The notes under the pieces were generated by a model. It searched no databases. It had not been told where the DNA came from and saw nothing but the letters and a program-made list of their open reading frames with translations. Positions 260 through 24,691 of a stretch of DNA of 64,000 bases are shown here, one piece after another (the stretch's first letter is position 1; each line of letters opens with the position of its first letter). The DNA is from Nitrospirota bacterium (GTDB lineage Bacteria > UBA2233). The stretch spans positions 1 through 64,000 of the forward strand of contig WOZJ01000066.1 in assembly GCA_011620345.1 (NCBI GenBank), written 5' to 3'. The position numbers and the translations under genes were made by a program.

Positions 260-2296
260 ATGCAAGACGGCGTTTACCGTTCCGTATGCCCTTTGGATTG
301 TCCCGATGCCTGCGGCCTCATGGTGCGGGTGGAGGGGTGCCTAGTGACTCAGGTTAGAGGAGACCCGGATCATCCCTTCACCAAGGGGTTTATCTGCGCC
401 AAAATGGGCCACTACCCAGACTTGATCAATTCCCCCGCACGAATTTTGACCCCTTTGAAGCGTACTGGGCCCAAGGGCGCAGGACAGTTTGCCCCCATCA
501 CCTGGGAAGATGCCGTGAACGAGATTGTCACCCGCTGGGGCGGCATCATCACCACCCGTGGTGCCGAGGCCATCTTACCCTACTCTTATGGCGGGGTGAT
601 GGGGCTTGTACAGCGCAACGCCGGTCATCCCTTTTTCCACCGCCTGGGTGCTTCCCGCTTGAAGCGGACAATCTGCTCCCCCGCCAGTACTGCCGGCTGG
701 CAAATGGTCATGGGGAATAGCCTAGGGACCGACCCGGAGGCAGTGATTCATGCGGACCTGGTGGTCCTGTGGGGGATAGACGCCGTTGCCACAAACCTTC
801 ACTTCGCTTCCCGAGTACGGGATGCCCAGCGTCAAGGCGCACGTGTGGTCCTGGTCGAGGCCTACAAAAGCCGCACCGCCACCCTGGCCGACCAGTTGGT
901 GCTGGTGCGGCCCGGCACCGACACTGCCCTGGCCCTGGGGATGATGCACGTCCTGGCGGGCGAGGACTTGGTGGATACCGCCTTCATCGACCGACACGTA
1001 ATTGGTTTCCCGGAACTCAGGGCCAACGTTTTGCCCGCCTTCCCACCGTCGCGGGTGGAGGAACTGACCGGGGTGCCGGCGAAGACGATAAGGCAGCTCG
1101 CCCGGGATTACGGCCGCGCCCGGTCGCCCTTTATCCGCATCGGCCGTGGCCTCTCCCGACACGAACAGGGGGGCATGAGTGTGCGTGCGATTTCTTGCCT
1201 GCCTGCCCTGGTGGGGGCTTACGCAAGGGAAGGCGGCGGCGCCTTCCTGGGTACCGGTACCGGCATGGCCTTTGCCATGGATCGGGTTACCCGTCCTGAC
1301 CTGCTTGCTCGCCCCACGCGGGAAATCAACATGGTGCGGCTCGGTCGCGCCCTAACCGAAGCCATGGAGCCGCCGGTGCAGAGCCTTTATGTCTATCATT
1401 CCAACCCCGCCGCCGTGGTTCCAGAACAAAACCTTGTTCTGTCTGGATTAAGTCGTGAAGACCTTTTTACCGTAGTGCACGAGCGCTTCATGACCGATAC
1501 CGCTCGCTACGCCGACATCGTCTTGCCCGCCACATTCTCCGTGGAGCAGCACGACCTTTACGGCAGTTACGGTCACTTCTACGTGCAGCGGACCCGCCCG
1601 GTGGTGGCGCCGTCCGCCGCCGCCAAGAGCAACTGGCAAGCATTCACTCTCCTGGCCCGGGCCCTGGGTTGGAGCGAAGAGCCGTTCCTACGCTCCGAAG
1701 AGGAAATGGTCGACGAACTGCTGGCCCACGAAACGCCCTTCTTGGAAGGTATCGATAGGGAAGCCTTATCCCTTGGCCGGGCCGTACGTCTCAACACCGG
1801 GCACCTTAAGACGCCTCCGTTTCAGACCGCGTCGGGACGTATCGAAATGTACGTCGCAGATGACGCCAACCCCGGCCTGCCGGTATTGCCTGCATACCAG
1901 GCCAACCAAGACCCGGAATGGGAACGGCTTTATCCTTTTTGCTTGCTTACCACGCCGGCCAACTACCTGTTAAACTCAAGCTTCGCCCAGATGGCAACCC
2001 TGGGAGCCAGGGAAGGAGGGCCACGCGTCCTGCTCAACCCGGAGGACTGCCTAGCGCGGGGCTTCGCAGACGGGGAATACTTGGAGGTGTACAATCACCG
2101 GGGGTCTTGTCTCTTGCGGGCAGAGGCCGACGCCGCCGTCCCTCCTGGTGTAGCGGTGATTCCAGGGGTTTGGTGGCTCAAAGACCTTCTGGCAGGGCGC
2201 AACGTCAACAGCCTGGTGGGCGACGATCTTACCGACATGGGCGAAGGTAGTACCTTCTATGCCTATCGAGTCAATTTACGGAGGTTGCAGCCCTAA
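260..2296 (+). CDS. Molybdopterin-dependent oxidoreductase (DMSO reductase family)
   Basis: A 678-residue protein of the formate dehydrogenase / DMSO reductase superfamily. The N-terminus has a [4Fe-4S] motif with Cys10, Cys14, Cys18 and Cys46. Cys139 in the TICSPAS segment is the likely molybdenum ligand. The C-terminal part (about residues 560-675) has the usual pterin-binding beta-barrel features. There is no Tat signal, so the enzyme should be cytoplasmic. The ATG at 260 is preferred over an upstream ATG at 137 because GGAGG lies at 245-249 and the iron-sulfur motif then sits right at the N-terminus, as in the family. The substrate cannot be told, and no electron-transfer subunit lies next to it. 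Codon use (few AGG arginine codons, almost no CTCGAG) differs from the following genes and may mean separate ancestry. Confidence 0.85.
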   Translation: MQDGVYRSVCPLDCPDACGLMVRVEGCLVTQVRGDPDHPFTKGFICAKMGHYPDLINSPARILTPLKRTGPKGAGQFAPITWEDAVNEIVTRWGGIITTRGAEAILPYSYGGVMGLVQRNAGHPFFHRLGASRLKRTICSPASTAGWQMVMGNSLGTDPEAVIHADLVVLWGIDAVATNLHFASRVRDAQRQGARVVLVEAYKSRTATLADQLVLVRPGTDTALALGMMHVLAGEDLVDTAFIDRHVIGFPELRANVLPAFPPSRVEELTGVPAKTIRQLARDYGRARSPFIRIGRGLSRHEQGGMSVRAISCLPALVGAYAREGGGAFLGTGTGMAFAMDRVTRPDLLARPTREINMVRLGRALTEAMEPPVQSLYVYHSNPAAVVPEQNLVLSGLSREDLFTVVHERFMTDTARYADIVLPATFSVEQHDLYGSYGHFYVQRTRPVVAPSAAAKSNWQAFTLLARALGWSEEPFLRSEEEMVDELLAHETPFLEGIDREALSLGRAVRLNTGHLKTPPFQTASGRIEMYVADDANPGLPVLPAYQANQDPEWERLYPFCLLTTPANYLLNSSFAQMATLGAREGGPRVLLNPEDCLARGFADGEYLEVYNHRGSCLLRAEADAAVPPGVAVIPGVWWLKDLLAGRNVNSLVGDDLTDMGEGSTFYAYRVNLRRLQP

Positions 2297-2348
2297 TTTC
2301 GGGTTAAAACCAAACCTCTTCAACGATGGGACAAAAGAGGAGGCATGC

Positions 2349-4199
2349 ATGCTTAGGCTTACCAAAAGACCAGGTGGGCGCTACCTTGGAGAAGGGAGGG
2401 CAGCGTTTCTTGTATGGGCACCTTTTAAGGACGAGGTGCGCATCCGTATCGCTTCCCCTCAAGAGCGCTTGATCCCGCTTGAAAAAGACCAGTTCGGGTA
2501 TCATTTTGGAAAAGCCGAAGGTATAGCCCCCGGTAGCCTCTACATGGTTCAATTGGGCGATGGCGAAGAGTTTCCAGACATCGCAAGCATCAGCCAGCCT
2601 AAAGGGGTGCATGGCCCCTCCGAGGTGACAGACGAGGCGTTTTCCTGGACAGACCAATCCTGGAGGGGCTTGCCGCTCGAGGATTACGTCGTATACGAGC
2701 TCCACATCGGCACCTTCAGCAAAGAGGGCACGTTTGAAGGGGCCATTCCTTACCTTGCCGAACTAAAAGAGCTTGGAGTCAGCGCGATCGAGGTCATGCC
2801 AGTGGCCCAGTTTCCTGGCAAGCGAAACTGGGGCTACGACGGTGTGTTCCCGTTTGCCGCGCAGACGAGCTACGGCGGTCTAGCTGGCCTCAAAACGCTG
2901 GTCAACGCATGCCACAGTGCGGGTCTGGCGGTCATCTTGGACGTCATCTACAACCACTTAGGCCCGGAGGGCAACTTCTTCAAGGCCTTTGGGCCGTACT
3001 TTACCGACCGCTACGCGACCCCTTGGGGCGAGGCGATCAATTTTGACGGGGCTTATAGCTTCGGCGTTCGGGAATACTTCATCCAGAACGCGCTGTTTTG
3101 GCTGGATAATTGCCATATCGATGCCTTGAGGCTCGATGCGATCCATGCCATCCTCGACGCCTCCGCCGCCGAGCCTTTTTTGGCTGAGCTGTCCGATCGA
3201 GTTAATGAGCGCGCAAAAACGCTCGGCAGGCGTATTTATTTGATCGGCGAGACGTTTATGGATGACAACCGGGTTATCCGAAAAAGAGCGTTTGGCGGGT
3301 TAGGGCTGGATGCGCTATGGAACGACGACTTTCACCACGCCGCCCATGCGTACCTGACAAAAGAACGCGTTGGCTACTATGAGGATTATGGCGATCTTCA
3401 AGCCCTGAAAGCGACCATGAAGGATGCCTTCGTCTACCAAGGCCAATACTCGAGCTACTTCAAGCGTGCGCACGGGACGTCAAGCAAAGGCTTTAGCGGA
3501 AAACATTTCGTCGTGTTCTCACAAAACCACGACCAAGTAGGAAACCGCATGCTCGGCGAAAGGCTCGTTTCGCTTGCCGGGTTTGAAAAGGCGAAGCTTG
3601 CCGCCGCGTTCGCCGTCTTTTCCCCCTACGTGCCGCTTTTTTTCATGGGCGAAGAGTACGCCGAGAAAGCCCCATTCCTGTACTTTATCGACCATGAAGA
3701 CCCTAAGCTTATCGAAGCGGTGAGGAAAGGCAGAAAAGAGGAGTTTGCTTCGTTCGCTTGGCAAGGAGAGCCGCCGGACCCTTACGCCTTGGAGACGTTC
3801 GAAGCCTCGCGGTTGAACCACGCGCTCAAGCAAGAAGGCCCGCACAAGGCGATGCTTGCCTTTTACAAAGAGATCCTTGCCTTAAGGCGCCGCCTTCTAT
3901 TTCTTTCTACACTCGACAAGGAAGCGCAGGAGCTCGTCTTGTTCGAAAAAAGCCAGACGCTTTTTATTGCGAGGGGCAGCCAGCCTGACATGGGATACCT
4001 TATTTTTCATTTTGGTCAAGAACGCGCAAGCCTGCTGCTTCCATTTGCAAAGGGCGAGTATCAAAAGGCGCTCGATTCCGCAGAGCCCAAGTGGAACGGC
4101 CAAGGAAGCGGCCTTCCAGAGCGCTTCTGTTGCGAGGGCGAAACAGAGCTTTCCCTATCGCCCTTATCTGTCGCACTGTACGTTAGGCAATCCCCATGA
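2349..4199 (+). CDS. treZ: Malto-oligosyltrehalose trehalohydrolase
   Basis: A 616-residue GH13 enzyme that releases trehalose from the maltooligosyl-trehalose made by TreY. An N-terminal beta-sandwich (about residues 1-100) precedes the catalytic barrel. The barrel shows YDGVFPFAA near residue 163, DALRLDAIH near 258 with the nucleophile Asp, LIGETF near 298 with the acid/base Glu, and SQNHDQVGN near 390. The ATG at 2349 is chosen because AGAGGAGG at 2336-2343 fits it; an upstream ATG at 2259 would overlap the previous gene. Its stop overlaps the treY start by four bases (ATGA), so the two are translationally coupled. Length and motifs are normal for the family. Confidence 0.95.
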   Translation: MLRLTKRPGGRYLGEGRAAFLVWAPFKDEVRIRIASPQERLIPLEKDQFGYHFGKAEGIAPGSLYMVQLGDGEEFPDIASISQPKGVHGPSEVTDEAFSWTDQSWRGLPLEDYVVYELHIGTFSKEGTFEGAIPYLAELKELGVSAIEVMPVAQFPGKRNWGYDGVFPFAAQTSYGGLAGLKTLVNACHSAGLAVILDVIYNHLGPEGNFFKAFGPYFTDRYATPWGEAINFDGAYSFGVREYFIQNALFWLDNCHIDALRLDAIHAILDASAAEPFLAELSDRVNERAKTLGRRIYLIGETFMDDNRVIRKRAFGGLGLDALWNDDFHHAAHAYLTKERVGYYEDYGDLQALKATMKDAFVYQGQYSSYFKRAHGTSSKGFSGKHFVVFSQNHDQVGNRMLGERLVSLAGFEKAKLAAAFAVFSPYVPLFFMGEEYAEKAPFLYFIDHEDPKLIEAVRKGRKEEFASFAWQGEPPDPYALETFEASRLNHALKQEGPHKAMLAFYKEILALRRRLLFLSTLDKEAQELVLFEKSQTLFIARGSQPDMGYLIFHFGQERASLLLPFAKGEYQKALDSAEPKWNGQGSGLPERFCCEGETELSLSPLSVALYVRQSP

Positions 4200-7045
4200 A
4201 CGGGATCGTTTCCGCATACCGGCTTCAAGCGTTCAAGGACTTTCCTTTTGAGCGGGCCGAGGCGATCCTTCCTTACTTGAAAAAGCTTGGTATCTCCACG
4301 CTCTACCTCTCCCCCATCACGAAGGCAAGGGAGGGCTCGAACCACGGCTACGACGTCGTCGATCCTACGCAGGTTAACCCGGAGCTCGGAGGGCGGGATG
4401 GTTTCGAGCGCCTCTACCAGGCGGCCAAGGAGTTGGGGCTGAACATCTTGGTCGACATCGTCCCAAACCACATGGCTGTCAGCCTAGAGAACCCGTGGTG
4501 GATGGATATTCTAGAGCACGGGCCCTCTTCGCCCTACGCGCATTTTTTTGATATCGACTGGAACCCCTCTTTTGGCCCTGTCGAGAATCGGGTGCTCTTG
4601 CCGGTTTTAGGCATGCCGTTTGGCGAGGCTATCGAAAATGGAGAGCTCTCGGTAATTTTCGAAGCGGGGTCTTTTTGGCTGGAATACTCTGGCAACCGGC
4701 TTCCAATCGAGCCTAAGTCGTACGGCGCCATTTTAAATAAAGACCTTACATCCTTTAAAGATCGTTCCCAGCCCGACCCAGGGGCGTTTAAGGAGCTCAT
4801 GTCGATCCTCGATACCCTCGAAGAGCTTCCTTTGCATACGGACAAGGCGCAGACGGCCATTCAAAAGCGAAGAGCCCTTACTGCCGAGGTCAAGCAAAGG
4901 CTCTCAAGCCTCCATGAAACATCCCAGGCGTTCCAAGGATTCCTTCAAGAAGGCTTGGAACGCCTATCTGGCACCAAGAACGACCCGGAGAGCTTTCTTG
5001 AGCTTGAATCCCTCCTTTTAAAGCAGCCCTACCAGCTCGTTTTCTGGCAGGCGGGGCTTAAGGAGATCAACTTTAGGCGTTTTTTCGACGTCAACGAGCT
5101 CGTCGGGGTTTGCGTCGAAAAAGAGGACGTGCTCGTTGCAACCCATGCGCTGATCTTCGATTTGGCCGCCCAAGGAAAGATTGCAGGCGTTAGGATTGAC
5201 CATATTGACGGGCTTTTCGACCCCGAAGGGTACTTGAAAAGCCTCGTTTCTGGCCTCCAAGCAAGAGGGAACCCCTGCCCTATCGTGGTCGAAAAAATTC
5301 TTGCCCGTGGAGAGTGGCTGCCAGAGTCGTGGCCCGTCAGGGCCACGACGGGCTATGACTTCCTGAACGCAACGACTAGGCTCTTTGTTGACCCAGAGGG
5401 CAAACAGGCCCTAGAGGGCCTAAATGCCGATCTGAACCCAAAATCTCTACCCTTTCGTCAGGTCGTACAGAAAAGCAAGCGTTTGGTCATCGGAGCGTCT
5501 TTTCAAAGCGAGGTTACCGCGCTATGGTACCGGCTGTCGATTCTGGCTAAGGCCTACCGCTACGCCCTTGATTTGCCGCTTAGGGAGCTAAGAAAGCTTC
5601 TTGAAGAGGTAAGCGCCGAGCTTGACGTCTACCGTACCTACGTTCGCGACCCAAACCCCTCTAAAGAGGATAAAGAACGAATCTTCGAGGCAATCGAGAG
5701 GGCGAAGGGGCTTAACAAAACGCTCGAAGAAAGGGGCTTTCGCTTCCTAGGCGACCTTCTTACGCTGCAAATTCCAAAACACCTTGAAGAGAGCTACGGC
5801 AAGGATTGGCTTGCGTTTGTTATGAACTGGCAGCAGTTTAGCTCTCCTGTGATGGCCAAGGGCTACGAGGATACCGCGCTGTACAACTACCCCAGGCTTG
5901 TCTCGCTTAACGAGGTAGGCGGCGATCCAGAAAGGTTTGGGGATGACCCGCGGGCATTCCATGCCTTTATTCAGGATCGGGGTAAAAGCGCCCCTGGCAG
6001 CCTTTCGGCCAGCTCTACGCACGACACCAAGCGGAGCGAGGATGTGCGGGCTAGGATCAGCGTCCTTTCGGAGCTGCCCTCTGAGTTTCGCAGGCATGTC
6101 AAAGCATGGAGGCGGCTCTTGGCGCCCGCAAGAACGCGCGTTGGAAGAGAGTCCTACCCAGACCCGAATGCAGAGCTTTTGTTTTACCAAACTCTCCTCG
6201 GCGCCTGGCCGCTCGACAAATCAGAGCTTGAAGGGTTGCCAGACCGAATGGCGGCGTATATGCTCAAAACCGCCAAAGAGGCCAAGGCCAAAACGAGCTG
6301 GATCGAGCCGAACGAAGCTTACGAGCGCGCGCTCGAAGCGTTTGTCAGGAACGCACTCGACCAAAAAACTTCCGAGGGGTTCCTTAAGGCTTTTTTGGGT
6401 TTTCAACCAGCCGTTGCCTTCTATGGGGCGTTAAACGGCCTTTCTCAGGCCACGCTCAAGCTTATGGCCCCAGGGGTTCCAGATACCTACCAGGGCACGG
6501 AGCTCTGGGATTTCAGCCTAGTCGACCCGGACAACCGAAGGCCAGTAGATTACTGCAAGCGAAAAACCATGTTAGATGGGCTCCAAGTAAGGGCCGCCAA
6601 GGGGCTAGACGAGCTTTTAAGGGATTTGCTGGCCTCTTGGGAGGACGGGCGCGTCAAGCTTTACGTCACCTGGAGGCTTTTAACGCTCAGGCAGGAAAAT
6701 CCAGACCTGTTCCTTGAAGGGGATTACCTCCCACTCGAAGTTGTAGGCAAAAAAAAGGACCACGCCGTCGCGTTTCAAAGAAGGCTCAAGGACCGTTCCG
6801 TGATCGTCGTCATTCCAAGGCTTACGAGCGCGCTTACCAAACCGGGCATCTTTCCTTTAGGAAAGGCCGTCTGGGAAAAGACGACCCTCGAAATGCCTAA
6901 GGACTCTCCAAAGCGCTTTAGAAGCGTTTTTACCGCGCAAGATATCGAAAGTTCGCAAGGGAAGCTGCCTCTGGCAAACGTGTTTTCAGGCTTTCCCATC
7001 GGAGTCTTTCTTGGCAATGAGGCAAAGGAGGAAGAACGGGCATGA
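4196..7045 (+). CDS. treY: Malto-oligosyltrehalose synthase
   Basis: A 949-residue GH13 intramolecular transglucosidase that turns the reducing end of maltodextrins into a trehalosyl unit, the substrate of TreZ. The N-terminus has the family signature LYLSPITKA followed by SNHGYDVVDP. Catalytic-region motifs are GVRIDHIDGL near residue 334, VVEKILARGE near 364, STHDTKRSED near 606 and DTYQGTELWDF near 763. A large insert between the barrel elements is normal for TreY. It overlaps treZ and cutA by four bases each, so treZ-treY-cutA form one transcription unit. No glycogen-debranching gene is next to it. Confidence 0.95.
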   Translation: MNGIVSAYRLQAFKDFPFERAEAILPYLKKLGISTLYLSPITKAREGSNHGYDVVDPTQVNPELGGRDGFERLYQAAKELGLNILVDIVPNHMAVSLENPWWMDILEHGPSSPYAHFFDIDWNPSFGPVENRVLLPVLGMPFGEAIENGELSVIFEAGSFWLEYSGNRLPIEPKSYGAILNKDLTSFKDRSQPDPGAFKELMSILDTLEELPLHTDKAQTAIQKRRALTAEVKQRLSSLHETSQAFQGFLQEGLERLSGTKNDPESFLELESLLLKQPYQLVFWQAGLKEINFRRFFDVNELVGVCVEKEDVLVATHALIFDLAAQGKIAGVRIDHIDGLFDPEGYLKSLVSGLQARGNPCPIVVEKILARGEWLPESWPVRATTGYDFLNATTRLFVDPEGKQALEGLNADLNPKSLPFRQVVQKSKRLVIGASFQSEVTALWYRLSILAKAYRYALDLPLRELRKLLEEVSAELDVYRTYVRDPNPSKEDKERIFEAIERAKGLNKTLEERGFRFLGDLLTLQIPKHLEESYGKDWLAFVMNWQQFSSPVMAKGYEDTALYNYPRLVSLNEVGGDPERFGDDPRAFHAFIQDRGKSAPGSLSASSTHDTKRSEDVRARISVLSELPSEFRRHVKAWRRLLAPARTRVGRESYPDPNAELLFYQTLLGAWPLDKSELEGLPDRMAAYMLKTAKEAKAKTSWIEPNEAYERALEAFVRNALDQKTSEGFLKAFLGFQPAVAFYGALNGLSQATLKLMAPGVPDTYQGTELWDFSLVDPDNRRPVDYCKRKTMLDGLQVRAAKGLDELLRDLLASWEDGRVKLYVTWRLLTLRQENPDLFLEGDYLPLEVVGKKKDHAVAFQRRLKDRSVIVVIPRLTSALTKPGIFPLGKAVWEKTTLEMPKDSPKRFRSVFTAQDIESSQGKLPLANVFSGFPIGVFLGNEAKEEERA

Positions 7046-14031: not shown

Positions 14032-15336
14032 CTAGGCTGCTCGAGGGGTTCGCCCCGCCCTCATTGGTTTCAGAGCAAACACGCTAAGGCTTACGAGCAG
14101 AAGAATCAGGCCGAACACCGAAAGTGTTTTGCCGACACCGATGGCGTCTAGCAGGTAGCCCGCGGTCAGCATACCGATGGGGGTCGCAGCCTGTGTGGTG
14201 GTGCTAAACGTCGTGAACACCCGGCCCAAAAGGCGCATAGGCGCCTGCGTTTGGAGGGTCGTTACGAACATGACGTTCATCGTCGTCGTACAGCTTCCCA
14301 TCATCATCGAGAGTACTAGCGCAAGCGATAGCGAGTGCAGATGCGTGAGCGAGATGAGCACAAGGCCAGCTATTCCTAGCGCCAACCCCATGGCCAGGCC
14401 CTCTTTAAGGTTCTTTCTCAGGTTTGCTAAAAGAAGCGAGGTCGCAAGCGCACCCGCGCCTAGCCCAGACATCATCAAACCCATCGCCTTCGGCCCAGCC
14501 TGCAGGATTCGCTCGGAGAAGACGGAGAACATCAAAGGAAGGGGGTTTAAAGAGAAGTTGTACACGAGCGCAACCGCCATAACGCCAAGGACCACCCGGT
14601 TGTCGAAGAACACGAAGCGCGCGCCCTCCTTAATGTCTTCGAAGACGCTCTGGCTGGAATCCCTTTCGCGTGCTTCCTTAGGAATCCGATCTTGAATCTT
14701 GAGCGGCAGGATGCAAAGCGCCGAGATCAAGAATGTGAGTCCGTCAATATAAAGGACGTTTTGAGCGCCTAGAATCGGGATCAAAACGCCCGAGATGGCA
14801 GGGCCCATCAGTACGCCCGTGTATGTAGTCGACTGGATGAGCGAATTGGCCTCGCGAAGGCGCTCTTTTTCGACAAGGAACGGGATTGAAGTGATCAGCG
14901 CAGGCCCGAACACGGTCGAGACGCAAGAAAACAAGAAGACGCTAAGGCATAGGGTTGGGAAGTTGAGCCATCCGACGTAATAAAGACTTGGAATGCCCAT
15001 CATAAGGACGAAACGGACAATGTCCGTTACAATCATCGTCTTCTTCCTGCTGTGTCGGTCTAAGTAGGCTCCAGCGACCATGCCCAGCGCAATGGCGGGC
15101 AACGTCTGAAGAATGCCTATCATGGCCATTTTAGCGGCTGATCCGGTCAATTCGTACACAAACCACAGCAAGGCCACACGGTTTAAGCCGTCCCCGATCT
15201 GGGAAATGACCTGGCCGAGCCACAGAGAGAAGAAGGGGGGGTTGAGGAGTAGAGGGCGCTTTTTGCCATCTTCTATGGTTTGCCGTCTTCGTGCGAGAGC
15301 GGGCTGATCGAGTAAGGGGGCCTTGGCCATCGCCAT
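14032..15336 (-). CDS. MFS exporter (EntS/MFS_3-like)
   Basis: A 434-residue major facilitator with about 12 hydrophobic segments from residue 30 to 425. The loop 2-3 signature is YLDRHSRKKTMI, the equivalent of GxxxDRxxRR. The N-terminus FFSLWLGQVISQIGDGL is typical of the enterobactin-exporter-like drug and siderophore efflux branch. The substrate is unknown. The ATG at 15336 follows AAGGAG by six bases and is preferred to a TTG seven codons upstream. A near-consensus sigma-54 promoter lies about 60 bases upstream, with dyad sites further out. The gene is followed by its own terminator, so it is a single-gene unit within the sigma-54 cluster. Confidence 0.88.
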   Translation of the reverse strand: MAMAKAPLLDQPALARRRQTIEDGKKRPLLLNPPFFSLWLGQVISQIGDGLNRVALLWFVYELTGSAAKMAMIGILQTLPAIALGMVAGAYLDRHSRKKTMIVTDIVRFVLMMGIPSLYYVGWLNFPTLCLSVFLFSCVSTVFGPALITSIPFLVEKERLREANSLIQSTTYTGVLMGPAISGVLIPILGAQNVLYIDGLTFLISALCILPLKIQDRIPKEARERDSSQSVFEDIKEGARFVFFDNRVVLGVMAVALVYNFSLNPLPLMFSVFSERILQAGPKAMGLMMSGLGAGALATSLLLANLRKNLKEGLAMGLALGIAGLVLISLTHLHSLSLALVLSMMMGSCTTTMNVMFVTTLQTQAPMRLLGRVFTTFSTTTQAATPIGMLTAGYLLDAIGVGKTLSVFGLILLLVSLSVFALKPMRAGRTPRAA

Positions 15337-15397: not shown

Positions 15398-15413
15398 AGC
15401 AAATTTTATGCCA
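15398..15413 (-). promoter_or_regulatory. Sigma-54 (-24/-12) promoter for the MFS gene
   Basis: The minus strand reads TGGCAT, AAAAT, TTGCT, an exact match to the TGGCAY-N5-TTGCW consensus with the GG-N10-GC spacing and a preceding T. The transcription start should fall near 15388, giving a leader of about 50 bases to the ATG at 15336. Confidence 0.85.
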
Positions 15414-15463
15414 ATTTAGGAGAAGCATGACGATGCATAGCCTACGGCGCTTACCATGACGGC

Positions 15464-15480
15464 TGTATCGCCATGATGCA
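15464..15480. promoter_or_regulatory. Dyad site C, putative activator binding site upstream of the MFS sigma-54 promoter
   Basis: TGTATCG-CCA-TGATGCA differs by one base from the dyad TGNATCA-N3-TGATNCA found in sites A and B. It lies 51-67 bases upstream of the -24 element. Function is inferred from position and repetition. Confidence 0.6.
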
Positions 15481-15528
15481 CTCTTTTGCGATGGATGGCG
15501 CGTAGTAGGCTTGTAACCGGACAAAGGT

Positions 15529-15571
15529 CTAAGGCAGGGTATGCATCATTGTGATGCATACCCTGCCTTAG
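15529..15571 (-). terminator. Perfect 20-bp inverted repeat after the GT4 gene; also contains a dyad site
   Basis: Positions 15529-15548 pair perfectly with 15552-15571 around a 3-base loop, starting five bases after the GT4 stop codon. It can act as a terminator, although the T-run is poor (ACCTTTGT). Its centre is dyad site B, so it may have a second role as activator site. Confidence 0.65.
15542..15558. promoter_or_regulatory. Dyad site B, putative activator binding site
   Basis: TGCATCA-TTG-TGATGCA matches TGNATCA-N3-TGATNCA exactly. It lies 129-145 bases upstream of the MFS -24 element. Site A lies at nearly the same distance from the GT4 promoter. Confidence 0.6.
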
Positions 15572-15576
15572 TTAGT

Positions 15577-16635
15577 CTACAGAAGGGCCAGTTGAGGCTT
15601 TAGGCAGGCGCGGAAGGATTGGCGCACTTCTTGATAGAGGGCTTCATGTTCGTCGATAAAGCGGGTTGCGCTGAAACGTTCCCGTGCCCGTTCGGCACAT
15701 CTCACCCTGTCGAAGTCTGTCAGTTTCTGGCTTTTGATCAGCTCGGCCATTTCTTTGAGGTTCCGAACAACAAAGCCCGTAACGCCCTCCTCGACGAGTT
15801 CGCTCACGGAACCTTTTGGAAAAGCGATGACGGGCGTTCCGCAAAGCATGGACTCTATCATGACCAAACCGAACGGTTCGTCCCATTCTATCGGGAAGAG
15901 CGTTGCCTTGGCCTTCCTTAGGAGACCGACCTTTTCTTTGAAGTTTAAATCGCCCAAGTGCGTTACGTCGCCAAGTCTCATGAGAGGCTTAATTTCTTCT
16001 TTGAAGTAGGGTTCATCCACCCAATGGACCGGCCCCCCGATGCGGAGCGGAACTCCGGCCATGGCCGCCGCCCGTATCGCTGTATGGAGGCCCTTGACTT
16101 TCGTGATACGGCCAAGAAAGGCTACGTAGGCCTCAGGCTTGGAACTCGAAGAAAAGAGAGATATATCAAGGCCATGGTAGATAGTGCGGACGTTGGCGAG
16201 GGGGATTTCTTGGCTTTTTTGGTATTCGGAGATAGAGACGTAGTGCACGTCCGGGAAGTGGGTATAGAGGCTTGAAAGGGTTTCGTTTTTTACGTGATGG
16301 AGCGTGTAGATGCAGGGAATGTCCGGGAGGAACCGCGTAAAGGGAAGCGCGTTTGCTCCGTGCAGATGAACCAAGTCAAAATCACCCTCTCTTACAATAT
16401 CCGTGAACGCGAAGCTGTAGTGGTTAATTTCCCGGTGGACATCCGGAGGCCAGGTGCTCTCTTGATAAATATATCGCAAAAAACCGGAAGTCTTCGAATC
16501 TCCCGTGGCGTACAAATGAACTTCATGACCCTTATCGGTAAGTCCTTCGCAAAGGACATGCACGATCTGTTCGATTCCCCCGTACCGTTTTGGCGGAACG
16601 CTGACATGCGGGTTGCAAACCATGGCGATCTTCAT
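15577..16635 (-). CDS. Glycosyltransferase family 4 protein
   Basis: A 352-residue GT-B retaining glycosyltransferase. The N-terminal acceptor domain starts MKIAMVCNPHVSVPPKRYGG. The C-terminal nucleotide-sugar domain has AYVAFLGRITKVKGLHTAIR, PIEWDEPFGLVMIESMLCGT (the E-x7-E motif) and TPVIAFPKGSVSELV. Donor and acceptor are unknown. AGGAGC precedes the ATG at 16635; an earlier start at 16668 lacks a site. It is far from the LPS genes and has its own sigma-54 promoter, so it probably belongs with the MFS and small-protein genes rather than with core LPS synthesis. Confidence 0.88.
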   Translation of the reverse strand: MKIAMVCNPHVSVPPKRYGGIEQIVHVLCEGLTDKGHEVHLYATGDSKTSGFLRYIYQESTWPPDVHREINHYSFAFTDIVREGDFDLVHLHGANALPFTRFLPDIPCIYTLHHVKNETLSSLYTHFPDVHYVSISEYQKSQEIPLANVRTIYHGLDISLFSSSSKPEAYVAFLGRITKVKGLHTAIRAAAMAGVPLRIGGPVHWVDEPYFKEEIKPLMRLGDVTHLGDLNFKEKVGLLRKAKATLFPIEWDEPFGLVMIESMLCGTPVIAFPKGSVSELVEEGVTGFVVRNLKEMAELIKSQKLTDFDRVRCAERARERFSATRFIDEHEALYQEVRQSFRACLKPQLALL

Positions 16636-16721
16636 GAAACATGCTCCTGTTGTTGTGGTGTAAGGCACCCTAGGATGCTAACTAACTAACACACTTCGCC
16701 CTATCCTTATTCTTATAGCTA

Positions 16722-16737
16722 AGCAAAACTCATGCCA
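16722..16737 (-). promoter_or_regulatory. Sigma-54 (-24/-12) promoter for the GT4 gene
   Basis: The minus strand reads TGGCAT, GAGTT, TTGCT, an exact consensus match with GG-N10-GC spacing. It shares ATTGGCAT and TTTGCTT with the MFS promoter. The start should be near 16712, giving a leader of about 77 bases. Confidence 0.85.
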
Positions 16738-16779
16738 ATGCGTCCTTAAGGTTGTCCGGGGCAGCTCCATACTGCAATT

Positions 16780-16796
16780 CGTATGCTTTTGATACA
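16780..16796. promoter_or_regulatory. Degenerate dyad site E upstream of the GT4 promoter
   Basis: CGTATGC-TTT-TGATACA has one perfect half-site (TGATACA) and one poor one. It lies 43-59 bases upstream of the GT4 -24 element, similar to sites A and C at their promoters. Confidence 0.35.
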
Positions 16797-16868
16797 CAAA
16801 GACTAAGGCCGGCTATCCTCGTGCGGCCGGAAATCCGGAAGAATGCCCGCGGGGTGTTTGTGGCTGAA

Positions 16869-16885
16869 TGAATCAAAATGATTCA
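16869..16885. promoter_or_regulatory. Dyad site A, putative activator site between two divergent sigma-54 promoters
   Basis: TGAATCA-AAA-TGATTCA is a perfect 7-bp inverted repeat matching TGNATCA-N3-TGATNCA. It lies 53-69 bases upstream of the small-protein -24 element and 132-148 bases upstream of the GT4 -24 element. This is the usual place for an enhancer-binding protein. The 361 bases between the GT4 gene and the first small gene otherwise hold only the promoters, a GGCCGG direct repeat (16807 and 16825) and a CTAA microrepeat. Confidence 0.65.
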
Positions 16886-16937
16886 CTCGTATGCGTACAG
16901 CTGTTTGAAAAGCCTGTAGGGGTCCTTTTTTTGAGAG

Positions 16938-16953
16938 TGGCACCGATATTGCA
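16938..16953 (+). promoter_or_regulatory. Sigma-54 (-24/-12) promoter for the three-gene small-protein operon
   Basis: TGGCAC, CGATA, TTGCA matches the consensus TGGCAC-N5-TTGCW at every defined base, with GG at 16939-16940 and GC at 16951-16952. The start should be near 16964, about 17 bases before the ribosome binding site at 16981. Confidence 0.88.
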
Positions 16954-16996: not shown

Positions 16997-17203
16997 GTGA
17001 GGCAAGCGTTATTTCTGAAGGCCCTCCGCGTCACGCTTTCCGGGCTCGGTGCCGGAGGGAAGAGCGCGAATGCATCGGTGGATCGCCTCATGGAGATGAG
17101 AAAACCTATCCAGAAGAGGGTTGCCCTCAAAGGTGAGACTCCCGTTTCTTGGAATGCATTCATTAGAAATTATCAGGAATTAAAGGAAGGAAAAAGGTTA
17201 TGA
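16997..17203 (+). CDS. Small basic protein of unknown function, first gene of the sigma-54 operon
   Basis: A 68-residue open frame that starts at GTG 16997, seven bases after the strong site GGAAGGAGG (16981-16989). It overlaps the next gene by four bases (ATGA at 17200). The longer frame back to ATG 16868 is rejected because it would start upstream of the promoter. The protein has no signal peptide or cysteine and is rich in Lys and Arg, with RKPIQKRVALKGETPVSW near the middle. I do not recognise a family. Reality is supported by the promoter, the ribosome binding site and the overlap, not by homology. Confidence 0.6.
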   Translation: MRQALFLKALRVTLSGLGAGGKSANASVDRLMEMRKPIQKRVALKGETPVSWNAFIRNYQELKEGKRL

Positions 17204-17565
17204 AACAATCGATCGTCGTTGGAAGCCTAGGAGTTGCCATGGTAGCTTTGGGCCTTGGGTTTGCACCACCCAGCAATGCTCAAGGATTGATGGATGGCCT
17301 TACGGGGCTGCTTGGGGCGCAGGCCCAAACCAGCACAACCGAGCCTACGGCTATGCCATCACCGTACCCGCTGCCGGAAAGTTTTTCGGACGGCGAAGAA
17401 GAATTGGCCGGAACCGCTCCCTTCGGTCCAGCGTTGGATACCGGCATGGCGACAACGCCCGATACTGGAACGCCGCAAGGAGCGACGGGCTCGAGCCCAG
17501 AGAGCCCAGAAGAAGGCATGACGCCACAACAGTTGCCGGCAATGCCCGTACAGCCAGGGTTCTAG
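17200..17565 (+). CDS. Secreted low-complexity protein of unknown function
   Basis: A 121-residue protein with a clear Sec signal peptide (MKQSIVVGSLGVAMVALGLG, cleavage likely after SNA near residue 27). The mature part is rich in Pro, Thr, Ser, Gly and acidic residues, has no cysteine and no predicted fold, and contains GLMDGLTGLLGAQAQ just after the cleavage site. AAGGAAGG precedes the ATG. It should be periplasmic, surface-associated or exported. It is the middle gene of three and probably acts with the cysteine-repeat protein that follows. No family is recognised. Confidence 0.7.
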   Translation: MKQSIVVGSLGVAMVALGLGFAPPSNAQGLMDGLTGLLGAQAQTSTTEPTAMPSPYPLPESFSDGEEELAGTAPFGPALDTGMATTPDTGTPQGATGSSPESPEEGMTPQQLPAMPVQPGF

Positions 17566-17600: not shown

Positions 17601-17900
17601 ATGAAAAAGAAGCTAATATTTCCCGCCGCAACTCTTCAAGCGGTCATTTTGTTTGGAGTACCGGCGTTTGAGGCTCTTGCGCAAACGCCGGCGAACGAGC
17701 CCTCTATAGCTGCTTGCACTTCCTCAGGACTGTCTGAAGAACAGTGTCAGCAGTGTTTTTCTGCGGGGATGACGATGGAAGAGTGCCTTGCGCAGCAAGC
17801 GCAGCTACAGCCATCCGTGCTAGAGGATGCAGAAGAAGGGGCTGCGCCTGGCGGAGTTCCAGAGGCCCCAAGCGCACCGTCCCCATCCATGGGCTATTAG
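17601..17900 (+). CDS. Secreted small protein with a tandem C-x9-C repeat
   Basis: A 99-residue protein with a Sec signal peptide (cleavage likely after ALA near residue 27). The mature N-terminus has four cysteines in the pattern C-x9-C-x2-C-x9-C. These form two 13-residue repeats, CTSSGLSEEQCQQ and CFSAGMTMEECLA, which share C-x-S-x-G-(L/M)-(S/T)-x-E-x-C. This recalls the twin-CX9C alpha-hairpin of disulfide-bonded proteins, but the two-residue linker is much shorter. There is no CxxCH haem motif. The C-terminal 40 residues are Pro, Ala and Glu rich. CAGGAGGG precedes the ATG. It is the last gene of the operon, followed by a terminator. No family is recognised. Confidence 0.72.
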   Translation: MKKKLIFPAATLQAVILFGVPAFEALAQTPANEPSIAACTSSGLSEEQCQQCFSAGMTMEECLAQQAQLQPSVLEDAEEGAAPGGVPEAPSAPSPSMGY

Positions 17901-17925
17901 AGTTTTTTAAACCCAATAACCCATA

Positions 17926-17964
17926 CCCCCTCGGGCCTGCCAGCCCGAGGGGGTGTTTCATTTT
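17926..17964 (+). terminator. Intrinsic terminator of the small-protein operon
   Basis: An 11-bp GC-rich stem (17926-17936 with 17943-17953), a 6-base loop and the T-rich tail TGTTTCATTTT. It lies 26 bases after the last stop codon. Confidence 0.92.
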
Positions 17965-19226: not shown

Positions 19227-21332
19227 CTAGAGGTTCCGCCCTTCTTTTCTGAGGCCGGCCAGCTTTTTTAGCACCCCTAAAACCCTCGGGTCGGTTTTTA
19301 TCTGCTCGAGGCTCAAGGCGGCTTTCCTGCGCCAGTTGGGCCGTTCATCGCCCGTGCCCGGCATGTTCTGGAAGGCCCGCTCGAGCCAGAGGTCTTCTAG
19401 GTTGACCAACAGGATCCTGGCCTGGCTTTGAGCCAAGAATTTGAGTGCGGCCAAAAGGAACGTTTCAAGGCCATCTCCTTGCAAAAGCCCTCTGGCCTCC
19501 AGAAAATTCCTTAGGGATTGCGTGAGCCTTTGTCTCGATTCGAGCTCTTCGGGTGCTTTTTCTTTGGAGAGGTAGCCAAGTGCCACGCGCTCTTGGATGT
19601 CGAGCGCTTCGAGGAACGAAGCGAACGTGGGCATGTCGTGTGTGCCCAGGCTGGCTAGGGCATCCTCGATCGGGTCGGGCAGTGCGTGTTCGGGGTCGGG
19701 CCGGATTTCGGCCAGGAGGCAGTACATCCGCTGGAGGCCCGTTCGTTCCATAGCCTTACGCATGTACCCGGACACCGTGCCCAGGTCTTCGCCCACCAGC
19801 ATGGATTTTGCCCTGTGCGATTCGATCGCCAAAATGGGGTATAGCTCTTCGTAAGGGTAGCGGAGGTACATCCCATCTTTGGCCTCGAACCCAGATGGAA
19901 TCACGAAGAGCCGGTGCAAACCCATGACGTGGTCAAGCCTGAGCACGCCCGCGAGTTCGAGGTTTGTGCGAATCGTTTCGATGAAATCTAGATGGCCGAG
20001 CTCGCGGGTTTTTTCCGGGTGGGGCGGCATGAACCCCCAGTTCTGGCCGAGCATAAAGAACGTATCGGGGGGGGCCCCGATAGAAAGCCCCTCGACAAAG
20101 CACCCTTGGTAGGCCCAGGCATCGAACCCGTCCGGGTTGACGCCGACGGGAAGGTCTAGGTAAATCGCCCCGTTTTTGGCCTTTGTTTGCTCGCAAAGCG
20201 CCCTCAACTGACGGAATGCTTGCCACTGGGAGAAAAGATGGTAGCGAAATGCCTTGGGCGGGACATCCCCGGGGCAAAGCCTTCCTGATTTCATCCGCTC
20301 CGGCCATCGTCGAAAGCCTAGCCCCAATGCCTCGAGTGCAGCCATAAAAAGGGCGAACTCATTGGCCCTTGGGCGCTCCCTAAGGAACGTCTCGATGCCT
20401 GCTAAGTCGCCCCTTTGAAAGTATGCCTCGGCGAGCGGCTCCAAAACCGAGCGTTTGAGCGCCATGGCTCTTCTGTAGTCTACGAGAGGGTCTTCGTTTA
20501 GCGCTTGCACGCTCGCCCAGAAGGCCGGGTCTTGAAACCTCTTCATGGCCTCTTTGCTGGCGTTGAGCTCTTGGATTTGAGCGATATCGATGAAAGCTGG
20601 GTTCAAAAACTGCCGGCTTACGGGTGAGTAAGGGCTTGGGCTGAAAAGCGGCCCTTCGACAAAGCTCGATGTAAGGGGCAGCAACCCGATCACGTTTGCG
20701 CCGTGATCCATTGCAAATTGAACAAATTGCTCGAGGTCTCCAAAATCACCCACGCCCATGCTCTTTTTGGAATGGAGCGCGTACAGCGGGAGAAACAGCC
20801 CGAGCTCTCGCCACGCCTCGTGGACAAACGCCCTCTTTGGGCTGCAAAAAAGATGGGCGGTGTATTCTTGGTCGCCAAGCTCGAGCTTGAGTGTATGGTA
20901 GCCGGCTGAAAGCCTTAAGGGGAGCGTGATCGCATACAATGGAGGAGCGTAAGGAGTTTGCTCGGCACTAAGCGGCCTTAGGGCTTCATAGGAAAGCTCT
21001 ATCTTTCTTGATGCGCCCGTTTCTTCTTGGACCTCGAACACCAAGGATCCCTTGGGGAGGCCTTTGGGCAGCCGAATCCGGATGCGGACGGACTCGTTCT
21101 CCAAGCAGGGGATTCCGGGTTCCAAGGGGCGGCCCCATAAGGCTTCTTGCTTAGCTTTGAGAGCGTTCGGCACATCCTCGATGCGTTCCAGCCCTGACCC
21201 CAGCGCCTTGAGGGTGGCGAGGATCGCCTCTTGGGAGGGCTCACGCCATACTCTTTGGATGTCGTAGTAACCGATTTGAAGCCCCCAGGCAGCGGCGAGA
21301 CGTCTAAGCGGCCTTGGAATTGCTTGGTTCAT
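19227..21332 (-). CDS. malQ: 4-alpha-glucanotransferase (amylomaltase)
   Basis: A 701-residue GH77 enzyme that transfers maltodextrin segments between alpha-1,4-glucans and releases glucose. The N-terminal extension (about residues 1-170) resembles the long form of MalQ. The catalytic part has LYALHSKKSMGVGDFGDLEQ, LRLDHVMGLHRLF with the nucleophile Asp, LVGEDLGTVSGYM with the acid/base Glu, and SLGTHDMPTF. Its start overlaps the end of the TreS-maltokinase gene by four bases, so it is the downstream gene of that operon. Its products can feed TreY/TreZ or return maltose to TreS. Confidence 0.95.
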   Translation of the reverse strand: MNQAIPRPLRRLAAAWGLQIGYYDIQRVWREPSQEAILATLKALGSGLERIEDVPNALKAKQEALWGRPLEPGIPCLENESVRIRIRLPKGLPKGSLVFEVQEETGASRKIELSYEALRPLSAEQTPYAPPLYAITLPLRLSAGYHTLKLELGDQEYTAHLFCSPKRAFVHEAWRELGLFLPLYALHSKKSMGVGDFGDLEQFVQFAMDHGANVIGLLPLTSSFVEGPLFSPSPYSPVSRQFLNPAFIDIAQIQELNASKEAMKRFQDPAFWASVQALNEDPLVDYRRAMALKRSVLEPLAEAYFQRGDLAGIETFLRERPRANEFALFMAALEALGLGFRRWPERMKSGRLCPGDVPPKAFRYHLFSQWQAFRQLRALCEQTKAKNGAIYLDLPVGVNPDGFDAWAYQGCFVEGLSIGAPPDTFFMLGQNWGFMPPHPEKTRELGHLDFIETIRTNLELAGVLRLDHVMGLHRLFVIPSGFEAKDGMYLRYPYEELYPILAIESHRAKSMLVGEDLGTVSGYMRKAMERTGLQRMYCLLAEIRPDPEHALPDPIEDALASLGTHDMPTFASFLEALDIQERVALGYLSKEKAPEELESRQRLTQSLRNFLEARGLLQGDGLETFLLAALKFLAQSQARILLVNLEDLWLERAFQNMPGTGDERPNWRRKAALSLEQIKTDPRVLGVLKKLAGLRKEGRNL

Positions 21333-24300
21333 CCTTGGGGCTCCTGTTGCTTGAGGACCTCCAAAAGCCCGCTAAGGGGCACTCCAACCCAATCGGGACG
21401 GCTCATCAGCTCGTACTCGATCTCGTACAGCGCCTTTTCGACGAGGAAAAAATTGAGGAGCTCCCGAAGGACCCCTTGGTCTTCCGGGACAAGCCGGGTT
21501 TGCGAGGCTTCAAGGAGGTGAAAGTAGGAATCGAGAAAGGTTTTGGCGACCACGAAATACCAAACCATGGCCCACCCGCGGGTCTTTTCGATGTCCTCCG
21601 ACCTTAGCTCCGTAGGAATCCGGCCTCCGAGCCCAAAATGGACGGCGTAGTGAAAAGACCTGAGCATACCGGCCACGTCCCGCAAGCAGGAACGCTTGAG
21701 CCGCCTTTCGCCGAGCGGCCTTAAGGGTTCGCCCTCGAAATCGATGATAACGAAATCTTTGCCCGTGTAGAGCACCTGGCCTAAGTGGAAATCTCCGTGG
21801 ATGCGGATCCGCATGGCCTGCATTTTTTTAGTAAACAGCGGTTGGAAGCGCGCCTCGATCTTGGCTTTCATGGATAGCAGCCGTTCGGCCTGGAGTTTTT
21901 CTTCTTGTGGTAGGTTCTTGAGGGAGCCTTTTAAAAGATCAAACGTGCGGGCTGAAAGGCTTCTGAAGGCGTGGTAGACGCCTCTTTGGTAGACGAGTGT
22001 GAAGGGTTCCGGAATGAAGGCCGGGTTCTCCTTCTCTACGCTAAGCGCGGTATGAAGCTCCGCCGTCCTTTGGCCAAGCAGTCTCGCGGATTCAAGATAG
22101 GGGCCGATCACGCTGGGGACTTCCTCAGGGAGAGAGGCTATATCCAAAAAGAGGGGGTCCTTTGGCATTCCAAGCTCGCCGGGGGCGGTATCGGCGGCCA
22201 TGGCCCTCTCGAAGAACTGACCCAAGGAGTGGAGCGTATAGCTCCAGGCATCTCCTTGGTTGGGAACGTAATCGACAAGAACACCCACGGACCAAGGCTC
22301 TTCGCCTTTACCGCGCCGATACTCGAGCGAGCCCATCAAGGGCGGGGTTTTTGTGGGCATTCCTTTGCGCGTAAGAAAGCTCAAGACCTCGAGCTCTGGG
22401 TTGATCCCGTCTTCTACATGCCTGAAGAGCTTCAAAATCAGCTTGTCCCCGAACGCGGCGGAGGTGTTGCTCTGTTCGGCAGAAAGCACCCTTGGCTCCA
22501 AGCCGCCCGATACCTCCTCTTCGTAAAACTTCCTCAATGTCCCCATCGGGAGGGCGAGCAGATTTCCGCGCTTGCCTTTGAAGCGCCTGCGTTTGGCGAT
22601 TGCCTCGAGGAGGGAAGCGAGCACTTCTTTGAGCCCAGTGGCATCGCACAAAAGAAAGTCCTCTTTTGATCTTGTCTGGATCTTGGCCAGGACGGGGATT
22701 TTGGAGTTAGCCTCCTCGCCCGGAATGAGCCCAAGGGCCATCAGGTAAGTGTTCGGGGCTCCTTCGTTGAAATCAACCCGAAGGAGCGTAAGCCAGGTTA
22801 AAAAAGGCTCATGCCCCAAGGGGATCGTCTCGGTAAGGTTGACGCTACGGATTGTCCTTGCCTTGGCCGCAAACCACCGGCATGTTTTCAGGTAGTCAGG
22901 CAAAAGCTCTAAAAGCTTCGAAAGCGGCCTTGGTTTATCAAAGAGGTCGTCTGGGTTCCCCACGCCAATGACGGGGAAAGCGAAAAGCTTCGGGGCTACG
23001 CTAACGGCGGGTTCGGGTAGCTTTGCGGGCTCGAGCGTGAAGAAGTAAAAAGAATGAGGGCCTAACGTAAGCGCGTAGGGCTCTTGGGTGATTTCGGGGA
23101 ACTCCACCTTGCCGAACATCTCGACAGGCCTTCTTCCGATGCAATCCGACAAATCGAGCCTGCAGTACTGGACGAATCTGGAGAGGTTGGATACGACAAG
23201 CACCTGCTGGCCTTCGTAGCCTCTAAGAAATGCAAAAATCTTGCTGTTTTCCGGCCTTAAGAAGGTTATATCCCCCCGGCTGAACGCCTTGCAGCCCTTC
23301 CTTAGCGCGATTAGGCGTTTCGTGAACCAAAGAAGTGAACCCGGGTTCGCCTTCTGGGCCTCGACGTTGATCGTTTCATAGTGGTACTCGGGGTCCGTGA
23401 TGGGGGGCAGGTAGAGCCTCTGGGGATTGGCCTTCGAGAACCCCGCGTTCCTGTCAGGGCCCCATTGCATGGGGGTGCGTACGCCGTTCCTGTCGCCCAA
23501 GTAAATATTGTCGCCCATTCCAATCTCATCGCCATAGTAAAGGATGGGAGTGCCGGGCAACGAGAACAAAAGCGCGTTCATCAACTCGATCCTTCGTCGG
23601 TTGTTGCCAAGGAGCGGGGCAAGCCTGCGGCGTATTCCTAAGTTGATACGGGCCTGAGGGTCCTTGGCGTAAACCCTGTACATGTAATCGCGCTCCTCGT
23701 CCGTCACCATCTCGAGCGTGAGTTCGTCGTGGTTCCGTAAAAACAGTCCCCACTGGCAGGTTTCTGGAATCTGTGGAGTTTGCACGAGGATGTCCACGAT
23801 GGGAAATCGGTCTTCAGTGTATAGCGCCATGAAGAGCCTTGGCATCAAGGGAAAGTGGAATGCCATGTGGCATTCATCGCCGTCGCCAAAGTAGGCGACG
23901 GCGTCCTCCGGCCATTGGTTGGCCTCGGCCAAAAGCATTCGCGCGTGGAAGTGTTCGTCGATGTATCTCCTTAGCTCTTGCAAGAACGCGTGCGTCTCGG
24001 GGAGGTTCTCGCAGTTCGTCCCTTCGCGCTCGAAGAGATAGGGGACAGCATCCAGCCTCAACCCCGACACGCCCATGGCCAGCCAGAAATCCACCGCCTT
24101 GAGCATGGCAGCCCGGACGGCCGGGTTGTCGAAGTTTAAATCAGGCTGGTGGGAGTAGAACCGATGCCAGTAGTAGGCCCTGGCGATCGGGTCCCAAGCC
24201 CAGTTGGACGTCTCGAAGTCTTTGAAAATGATCCTTGCGTCCTTGTAAGGCTCGGCCGTCTCGCTCCATACGTAGAAGTTTCTCTTCCTAGAGGCCGGGC

Positions 24301-24691
24301 TCGCCCTGCGCGCTTGCTGGAACCAAGGGTGCTGGTCGGAGGTATGGTTTAAAACGAGCTCCGTGATGACCCGAATCCCCCTCTTCGTCGCCTCCTTCAT
24401 AAAATGCTCGAAGTCCTTGAGCGTCCCGTAGGAGGGATGAACCCCGGTATAATCCGCGATGTCGTAGCCGTCATCTTTCAATGGTGATGGGTAAAACGGC
24501 AAGAGCCAAACGGCGGTAACCCCCAGGTCTTCCAGGTAATCGAGCTTTTCGGCAAGCCCGCGGAAATCGCCGATCCCGTCGCCGTCGGAATCGTAAAAGG
24601 CGCGGACGTGCAATTCGTACAGGATGGCATCTTTGAACCATAAGGGGTCGTCGCCTTCGAGTACGCCTTGGAATTTACGTTTGACCGGCAT
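21329..24691 (-). CDS. treS: Trehalose synthase / maltokinase fusion protein
   Basis: A 1120-residue two-enzyme protein. Residues 1 to about 560 are TreS (GH13), which interconverts trehalose and maltose: YELHVRAFYDSDGDGIGDF, GLRLDAVPYL with the nucleophile Asp, LLAEANQWPED with the acid/base Glu, and RNHDELTLEM. Residues from about 590 to 1115 are a maltokinase (Pep2/Mak) with the aminoglycoside-kinase-like motif IRIHGDFHLGQVL and IIDFEGEPLRP. The fusion makes maltose 1-phosphate, the donor for GlgE in the alpha-glucan pathway. No glgE or glgB is in the window. Such fusions are known in many bacteria. It is coupled to malQ. Confidence 0.95.
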   Translation of the reverse strand: MPVKRKFQGVLEGDDPLWFKDAILYELHVRAFYDSDGDGIGDFRGLAEKLDYLEDLGVTAVWLLPFYPSPLKDDGYDIADYTGVHPSYGTLKDFEHFMKEATKRGIRVITELVLNHTSDQHPWFQQARRASPASRKRNFYVWSETAEPYKDARIIFKDFETSNWAWDPIARAYYWHRFYSHQPDLNFDNPAVRAAMLKAVDFWLAMGVSGLRLDAVPYLFEREGTNCENLPETHAFLQELRRYIDEHFHARMLLAEANQWPEDAVAYFGDGDECHMAFHFPLMPRLFMALYTEDRFPIVDILVQTPQIPETCQWGLFLRNHDELTLEMVTDEERDYMYRVYAKDPQARINLGIRRRLAPLLGNNRRRIELMNALLFSLPGTPILYYGDEIGMGDNIYLGDRNGVRTPMQWGPDRNAGFSKANPQRLYLPPITDPEYHYETINVEAQKANPGSLLWFTKRLIALRKGCKAFSRGDITFLRPENSKIFAFLRGYEGQQVLVVSNLSRFVQYCRLDLSDCIGRRPVEMFGKVEFPEITQEPYALTLGPHSFYFFTLEPAKLPEPAVSVAPKLFAFPVIGVGNPDDLFDKPRPLSKLLELLPDYLKTCRWFAAKARTIRSVNLTETIPLGHEPFLTWLTLLRVDFNEGAPNTYLMALGLIPGEEANSKIPVLAKIQTRSKEDFLLCDATGLKEVLASLLEAIAKRRRFKGKRGNLLALPMGTLRKFYEEEVSGGLEPRVLSAEQSNTSAAFGDKLILKLFRHVEDGINPELEVLSFLTRKGMPTKTPPLMGSLEYRRGKGEEPWSVGVLVDYVPNQGDAWSYTLHSLGQFFERAMAADTAPGELGMPKDPLFLDIASLPEEVPSVIGPYLESARLLGQRTAELHTALSVEKENPAFIPEPFTLVYQRGVYHAFRSLSARTFDLLKGSLKNLPQEEKLQAERLLSMKAKIEARFQPLFTKKMQAMRIRIHGDFHLGQVLYTGKDFVIIDFEGEPLRPLGERRLKRSCLRDVAGMLRSFHYAVHFGLGGRIPTELRSEDIEKTRGWAMVWYFVVAKTFLDSYFHLLEASQTRLVPEDQGVLRELLNFFLVEKALYEIEYELMSRPDWVGVPLSGLLEVLKQQEPQG

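Follow-up and report, generated by a model that had tools for sequence, protein, structure and literature searches.

Three sigma-54 promoters within 1.6 kb

Between positions 15398 and 16953, three near-consensus -24/-12 elements stand in front of an MFS exporter, a GT4 glycosyltransferase and an operon of small proteins. The question is whether these elements are sigma-54 promoters and, if so, whether the three units are controlled together. The window, meaning the whole stretch of DNA analysed, is the first 64 kb of an 83-kb contig (C68) in a genome (G000) of 1.80 Mb, 72 contigs and 96.8% completeness. The genomes drawn as relatives number 59 – one is a sister species of the same genus (G001), and the rest share the domain at closest. 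Genome-wide motif counts come from pattern searches.

Each element is found letter for letter at the position and on the strand given in the sequence-only reading, and each is an exact match to TGGCAY-N5-TTGCW, with GG at -24 and GC at -12 separated by 10 bases:

15398–15413, minus strand: -24/-12 element of the MFS gene, TGGCATAAAATTTGCT; predicted start at ca. 15388
16722–16737, minus strand: -24/-12 element of the GT4 gene, TGGCATGAGTTTTGCT; predicted start at ca. 16712
16938–16953, plus strand: -24/-12 element of the ORF1-3 operon, TGGCACCGATATTGCA; predicted start at ca. 16964

All three are intergenic and point toward a start codon that a ribosome binding site precedes: an ATG at 15336 for the MFS gene, an ATG at 16635 for the GT4 gene and a GTG at 16997 for ORF1, with predicted 5’ untranslated regions of ca. 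52, 77 and 33 nt, respectively.

There are no other exact matches in the 64-kb window. Three further sites have one mismatch (16602, 33424 and 52921), and every one is within an ORF, in agreement with the earlier remark that no comparable element was spotted in the other gaps inspected. Under a first-order (dinucleotide) Markov model of the window, 0.087 exact matches are expected per 64 kb, and none of 300 simulations had three within 1.6 kb. Across the 1.8-Mb genome there are 11 exact matches, compared to 2 for the reversed pattern. The earlier reading of the three elements as near-consensus sigma-54 promoters is supported by these patterns.

RpoN, enhancer-binding proteins and other sigma-54 sites

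Absence of rpoN had been named beforehand as the observation that would count against this reading; an intact RpoN of 460 aa is encoded on contig C60, with the box ARRTIAKYR and a PF04552 match at E 2.4e-50. Enhancer-binding proteins (EBPs, PF00158) are also present, with GAFTGA-type loops – six matches are strong, one (C34) is weaker, and the meaning of three more weak matches is doubtful. The regulator had been expected to act from elsewhere, and the distribution of PF00158 fits: there is no such activator on C68, and there are several on other contigs of this 97% complete genome.

The three promoters had also been said to define a small regulon. This holds to the extent that a palindrome, described below, is common to just these promoters, but they are not the only sigma-54 promoters of the genome. 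Exact sites also precede nifB (C14), lpxC (C55) and a gene for a 54-aa protein (C72), and all three sites are conserved in the sister species; the nif and lpxC names come from reading the protein sequences. Regulation of nif genes by sigma-54 is established, which makes the nifB site a positive control. Conserved in the sister species, the nifB and lpxC sites together are an internal positive control for the motif.

Several of these sites are of interest in themselves. In this 1.8-Mb genome, NifB, NifH and NifDKEN-like proteins are encoded in what appears to be a nif cluster (L033, C14 2300–12946; sister L091, G001 C17), and the exact sigma-54 site of its nifB promoter has the same sequence in the sister species. 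The site upstream of the lpxC-like gene is likewise identical in both species (L029, C55:23250; L096, G001 C58), which suggests sigma-54 control of lipid A synthesis. The 54-aa protein (MPETTKAIAFHQDARP...) has the same C-terminal ending in both species, and its sigma-54 site is conserved (L032, C72:15170; L095, G001 C54:80745). On C16 (L023, 8239–12362), an exact site precedes the gene of a Lys-rich small protein with AAKGKKKEKK repeats and an apparent signal peptide. Genes for a histidine kinase and for an EBP truncated by the contig end come next; this is a second small-exported-protein locus with a sigma-54 site. In the sister genome, an exact site lies ca. 100 bp upstream of a nuoA-like gene (L092, G001 C34:1655), with no exact counterpart in G000.

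A shared palindrome upstream of the three promoters

The upstream regions of the three promoters have in common the palindrome TGNATCA-N3-TGATNCA, a pattern derived post hoc from the copies at 15542 and 16869:

15542–15558: candidate enhancer (UAS) 1, TGCATCA-TTG-TGATGCA, perfect; centre at -163 from the MFS start
15464–15480: candidate enhancer (UAS) 2, TGTATCG-CCA-TGATGCA, one mismatch; centre at -85 from the MFS start
16869–16885: candidate enhancer (UAS) 3, TGAATCA-AAA-TGATTCA, perfect; centre at -166 from the GT4 start and -87 from the ORF1 start
16780–16796: weak candidate enhancer, CGTATGC-TTT-TGATACA, three mismatches, alone within chance; -77 from the GT4 start and -176 from the ORF1 start
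15529–15571: perfect inverted repeat with 20-bp arms and a 3-nt loop, 3’ of the GT4 gene; its core is UAS 1; z ca. -8.7

UAS 3 lies between the divergent GT4 and ORF1 promoters. The centres are at matching distances from the predicted starts of different promoters (-163 and -166, -85 and -87), and EBP sites commonly lie at such distances (PMC4641369). Simulations of the two gaps that fixed neither spacer nor sequence gave equally matched palindromes in both of them in 5 of 200,000 cases, and the probability of a further copy as good as that at 15464 in the MFS gap is 7e-4. A shared candidate enhancer is thus well supported statistically.

With up to one mismatch, the pattern occurs at six places in the genome – three in the gaps described here and three in coding DNA (at a dnaA-like start on C4, on C66, and at 78.3 kb of C68). 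The C4 match (C4:4084) was considered as a regulatory site and rejected as coding, since it overlaps the dnaA-like start in both species. None of six other exact sigma-54 sites has a copy within two mismatches. This restriction to one locus points to a single dedicated EBP. No copy of the palindrome lies at any of the EBP genes to mark one of them as the cognate activator.

The inverted repeat around UAS 1 has a predicted stability of ca. -37 kcal/mol on either strand, with no T tract on either side. It may protect or end the GT4 RNA, though it lacks the T tract. The copies at 16869 and 15464 are outside long hairpins.

Genes of the three units

The genes downstream of the three elements are as follows:

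14032–15336, minus strand: MFS exporter, 434 aa, MFS_3/MFS_1 families
15577–16635, minus strand: GT4 glycosyltransferase, 352 aa, similar to glucosylsucrose synthase
16997–17203, plus strand: ORF1, 68 aa, GTG start, no family
17200–17565, plus strand: ORF2, 121 aa, acidic and Pro-rich, apparent signal peptide (by inspection), no family
17601–17900, plus strand: ORF3, 99 aa, apparent signal peptide (by inspection) followed by four Cys, no family
17923–17956, plus strand: strong terminator hairpin of the ORF1-3 operon

The families nearest to the MFS protein are the H+ antiporter 2A0121 and EntS, and it scores under the curated NCBIfam cutoffs (237 against 319.6 bits for TIGR00900, 121.8 against 324 bits for EntS).

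The glycosyltransferase had been assigned to GT4, and it can be placed more precisely, as glucosylsucrose-synthase-like. Among solved GT4 structures, the cyanobacterial glucosylsucrose synthase TeGSS (tll1591, PDB 7fg9) is by far the best match (E 2.4e-63, 38% identity over 299 aligned residues), and tetrahydrobiopterin glucosyltransferases are the next best. The residues by which TeGSS holds UDP and performs catalysis, Tyr18, Arg179 and Lys184 (PMC9909042), are kept, as are Trp254 and the E-x7-E motif. In contrast, seven of the listed acceptor-site residues differ – Trp10 is replaced by His, and six more differ at the acceptor rim. The GT4 protein is probably a retaining, UDP-glucose-using enzyme, and because of these differences its acceptor is probably another one. 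TeGSS is not known to be under sigma-54 control.

Relatives of the GT4 protein in Acidobacteria adjoin GDE-type glucosidases, and one Paraburkholderia relative is near a GH65 enzyme. The window itself is rich in alpha-glucan genes, with alpha-amylase-family genes at 2259–7045 and 21329–24691 and a GH77 gene at 19227–21332. The enzymes encoded at 2259–7045 and 19227–24691, near the cluster, are of alpha-glucan or trehalose type, and a TreT-like protein, named by reading, is encoded elsewhere, on C50 (L102). The enzymes near the cluster and those adjoining the GT4 relatives hint at glucoside or stress-solute metabolism of the kind seen in salt-stressed cyanobacteria. The promoter arrangement is not shared with the 51 GT4 relatives scanned in other genomes, because the sole exact site near upstream, in Mucilaginibacter (L046), is inside the preceding ORF.

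The small-protein operon consists of three ORFs and a terminator, with ORF1 and ORF2 overlapping by ATGA. In Pfam, NCBIfam and PHROGs, all three proteins stay below every cutoff, and none has a relative in the compared loci. ORF2 and ORF3 appear to be secreted, as judged from their N-termini.

The sister genome and the question of lateral transfer

The cluster is missing from the sister assembly. Strain-specific acquisition was considered as the reason and rejected in favor of an assembly gap, because the sister contig breaks off within the LLM gene, at window position 13532, and the 20 kb tested beyond that point, core-looking genes included, are also missing. Therefore, neither conservation nor loss of the cluster in the sister species can be claimed. 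GC content is lower at 15–17 kb (0.50–0.51, against ca. 0.56), which by itself does not show transfer.

No ortholog of the C16 EBP or of the C30 EBP is present in the sister assembly. This would fit a locus-specific regulator, but the gap argument applies here too, and the promoter adjacent to the C16 EBP has no palindrome; these candidates were set aside.

Proposed mechanism and alternatives

We consider it likely that the three units form one co-regulated sigma-54 set under a single, palindrome-bound EBP. In this model, a stimulus would activate one EBP, encoded elsewhere, which would bind TGNATCA-N3-TGATNCA at -163 and -85 for the MFS gene, -166 for the GT4 gene and -87 for ORF1. The copy at 16869–16885 would serve both divergent promoters, perhaps aided by the weak site at -77/-176. 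EBPs in general act by DNA looping and ATP hydrolysis; by these means the bound protein would reach RpoN RNA polymerase at the -24/-12 promoters and open them, so that the MFS exporter, the GT4 glycosyltransferase and ORF1-2-3 would be driven together. Exporter, glycosyltransferase and small proteins would then be expressed together, with tight gating, on a specific stimulus only. To judge from gene content, the set probably yields a glycosylated small molecule or a surface glycan made by the GT4 enzyme, an export function of the MFS protein, and small exported proteins. A more specific version can be put forward only tentatively – that a dedicated EBP with an undescribed operator controls this locus and no other, in a lineage for which the compared genomes include one close relative, and that an unrecognised glucoside or surface glycan is made and exported here, along with small exported proteins that form a new family.

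The sigma-54 promoters could be genuine and the palindromes could have a separate role, as sites for an ordinary repressor or activator or, at UAS 1, as part of a hairpin of the GT4 RNA, with the units answering to different EBPs. The position of UAS 1 in a hairpin with 20-bp arms directly 3’ of the GT4 gene favors this, as does the presence of several EBPs, none tied to the palindrome; but the other two copies are not in long hairpins, and the paired distances fall in the range usual for EBP sites (PMC4641369), and we regard separate roles as unlikely. The promoters themselves could also be doubted. Exact matches can be due to chance, because two to four of the others in the genome are intragenic, and at least one of the three here could be of that kind, with the genes using sigma-70 promoters that the consensus scan missed. 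Such an explanation is quite improbable: the three elements are all in gaps and correctly oriented, the consensus scan gave no more sigma-70-like sites in the region than expected by chance, and if the other 8 exact matches in 1.8 Mb are taken as the genome’s rate, the probability of a triple within 1.6 kb anywhere is ca. 6e-5.

The locus could instead belong to the known PEP-CTERM/PrsK-PrsR regulon, whose genes for secreted proteins and exopolysaccharide are controlled by a sigma-54 response regulator. In that system, a 17-nt motif, sometimes repeated, lies ca. 63 nt upstream of the sigma-54 motif, and the secreted-protein targets are near glycosyltransferases (Haft et al. 2006, PMC1569441). 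The layout here is alike in kind, with a repeated 17-nt candidate enhancer before a sigma-54 element, apparently secreted proteins, and glycosyltransferases nearby. However, the published enhancer ends in TTTACA and differs from the palindrome (PMC1569441), and two defining features of the system were not found. Sequences and family scans gave no PEP-CTERM segment at the C-terminus of ORF2 or ORF3, and none of the five EBPs scanned (all but those on C55 and C34) was above the TIGR02915 (PrsR) cutoff, the best scoring 409 against 502.6 bits. Membership in this regulon is already contradicted and hardly credible. In kind, the single-EBP model fits the general pattern of sigma-54 systems that control genes for export and for the cell exterior (Francke et al. 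2011, PMC3162934; the Desulfovibrio vulgaris regulome, PMC4641369). It shares with them TGGCAY-N5-TTGCW promoters, rpoN, EBPs, upstream palindromes, and genes for transport and glycosyl transfer among the targets. Unlike in those systems, the palindrome and the small proteins here were matched to nothing described.

Significance

The principle of sigma-54 control over export and exterior genes is already established, with sigma-54 described as a controller of exterior functions (PMC3162934). What is new is the candidate enhancer TGNATCA-N3-TGATNCA, apparently shared by three neighboring sigma-54 promoters. Promoters, candidate enhancers and targets together would make a compact, testable sigma-54 regulon of ca. 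4 kb, in a host with no relative beyond its own genus closer than domain level among the 59 genomes. With the palindrome as a lead, the cognate EBP could be sought among six or seven candidates. A link to one inducible response would narrow down what the TeGSS-like enzyme and the unclassified small exported proteins do.
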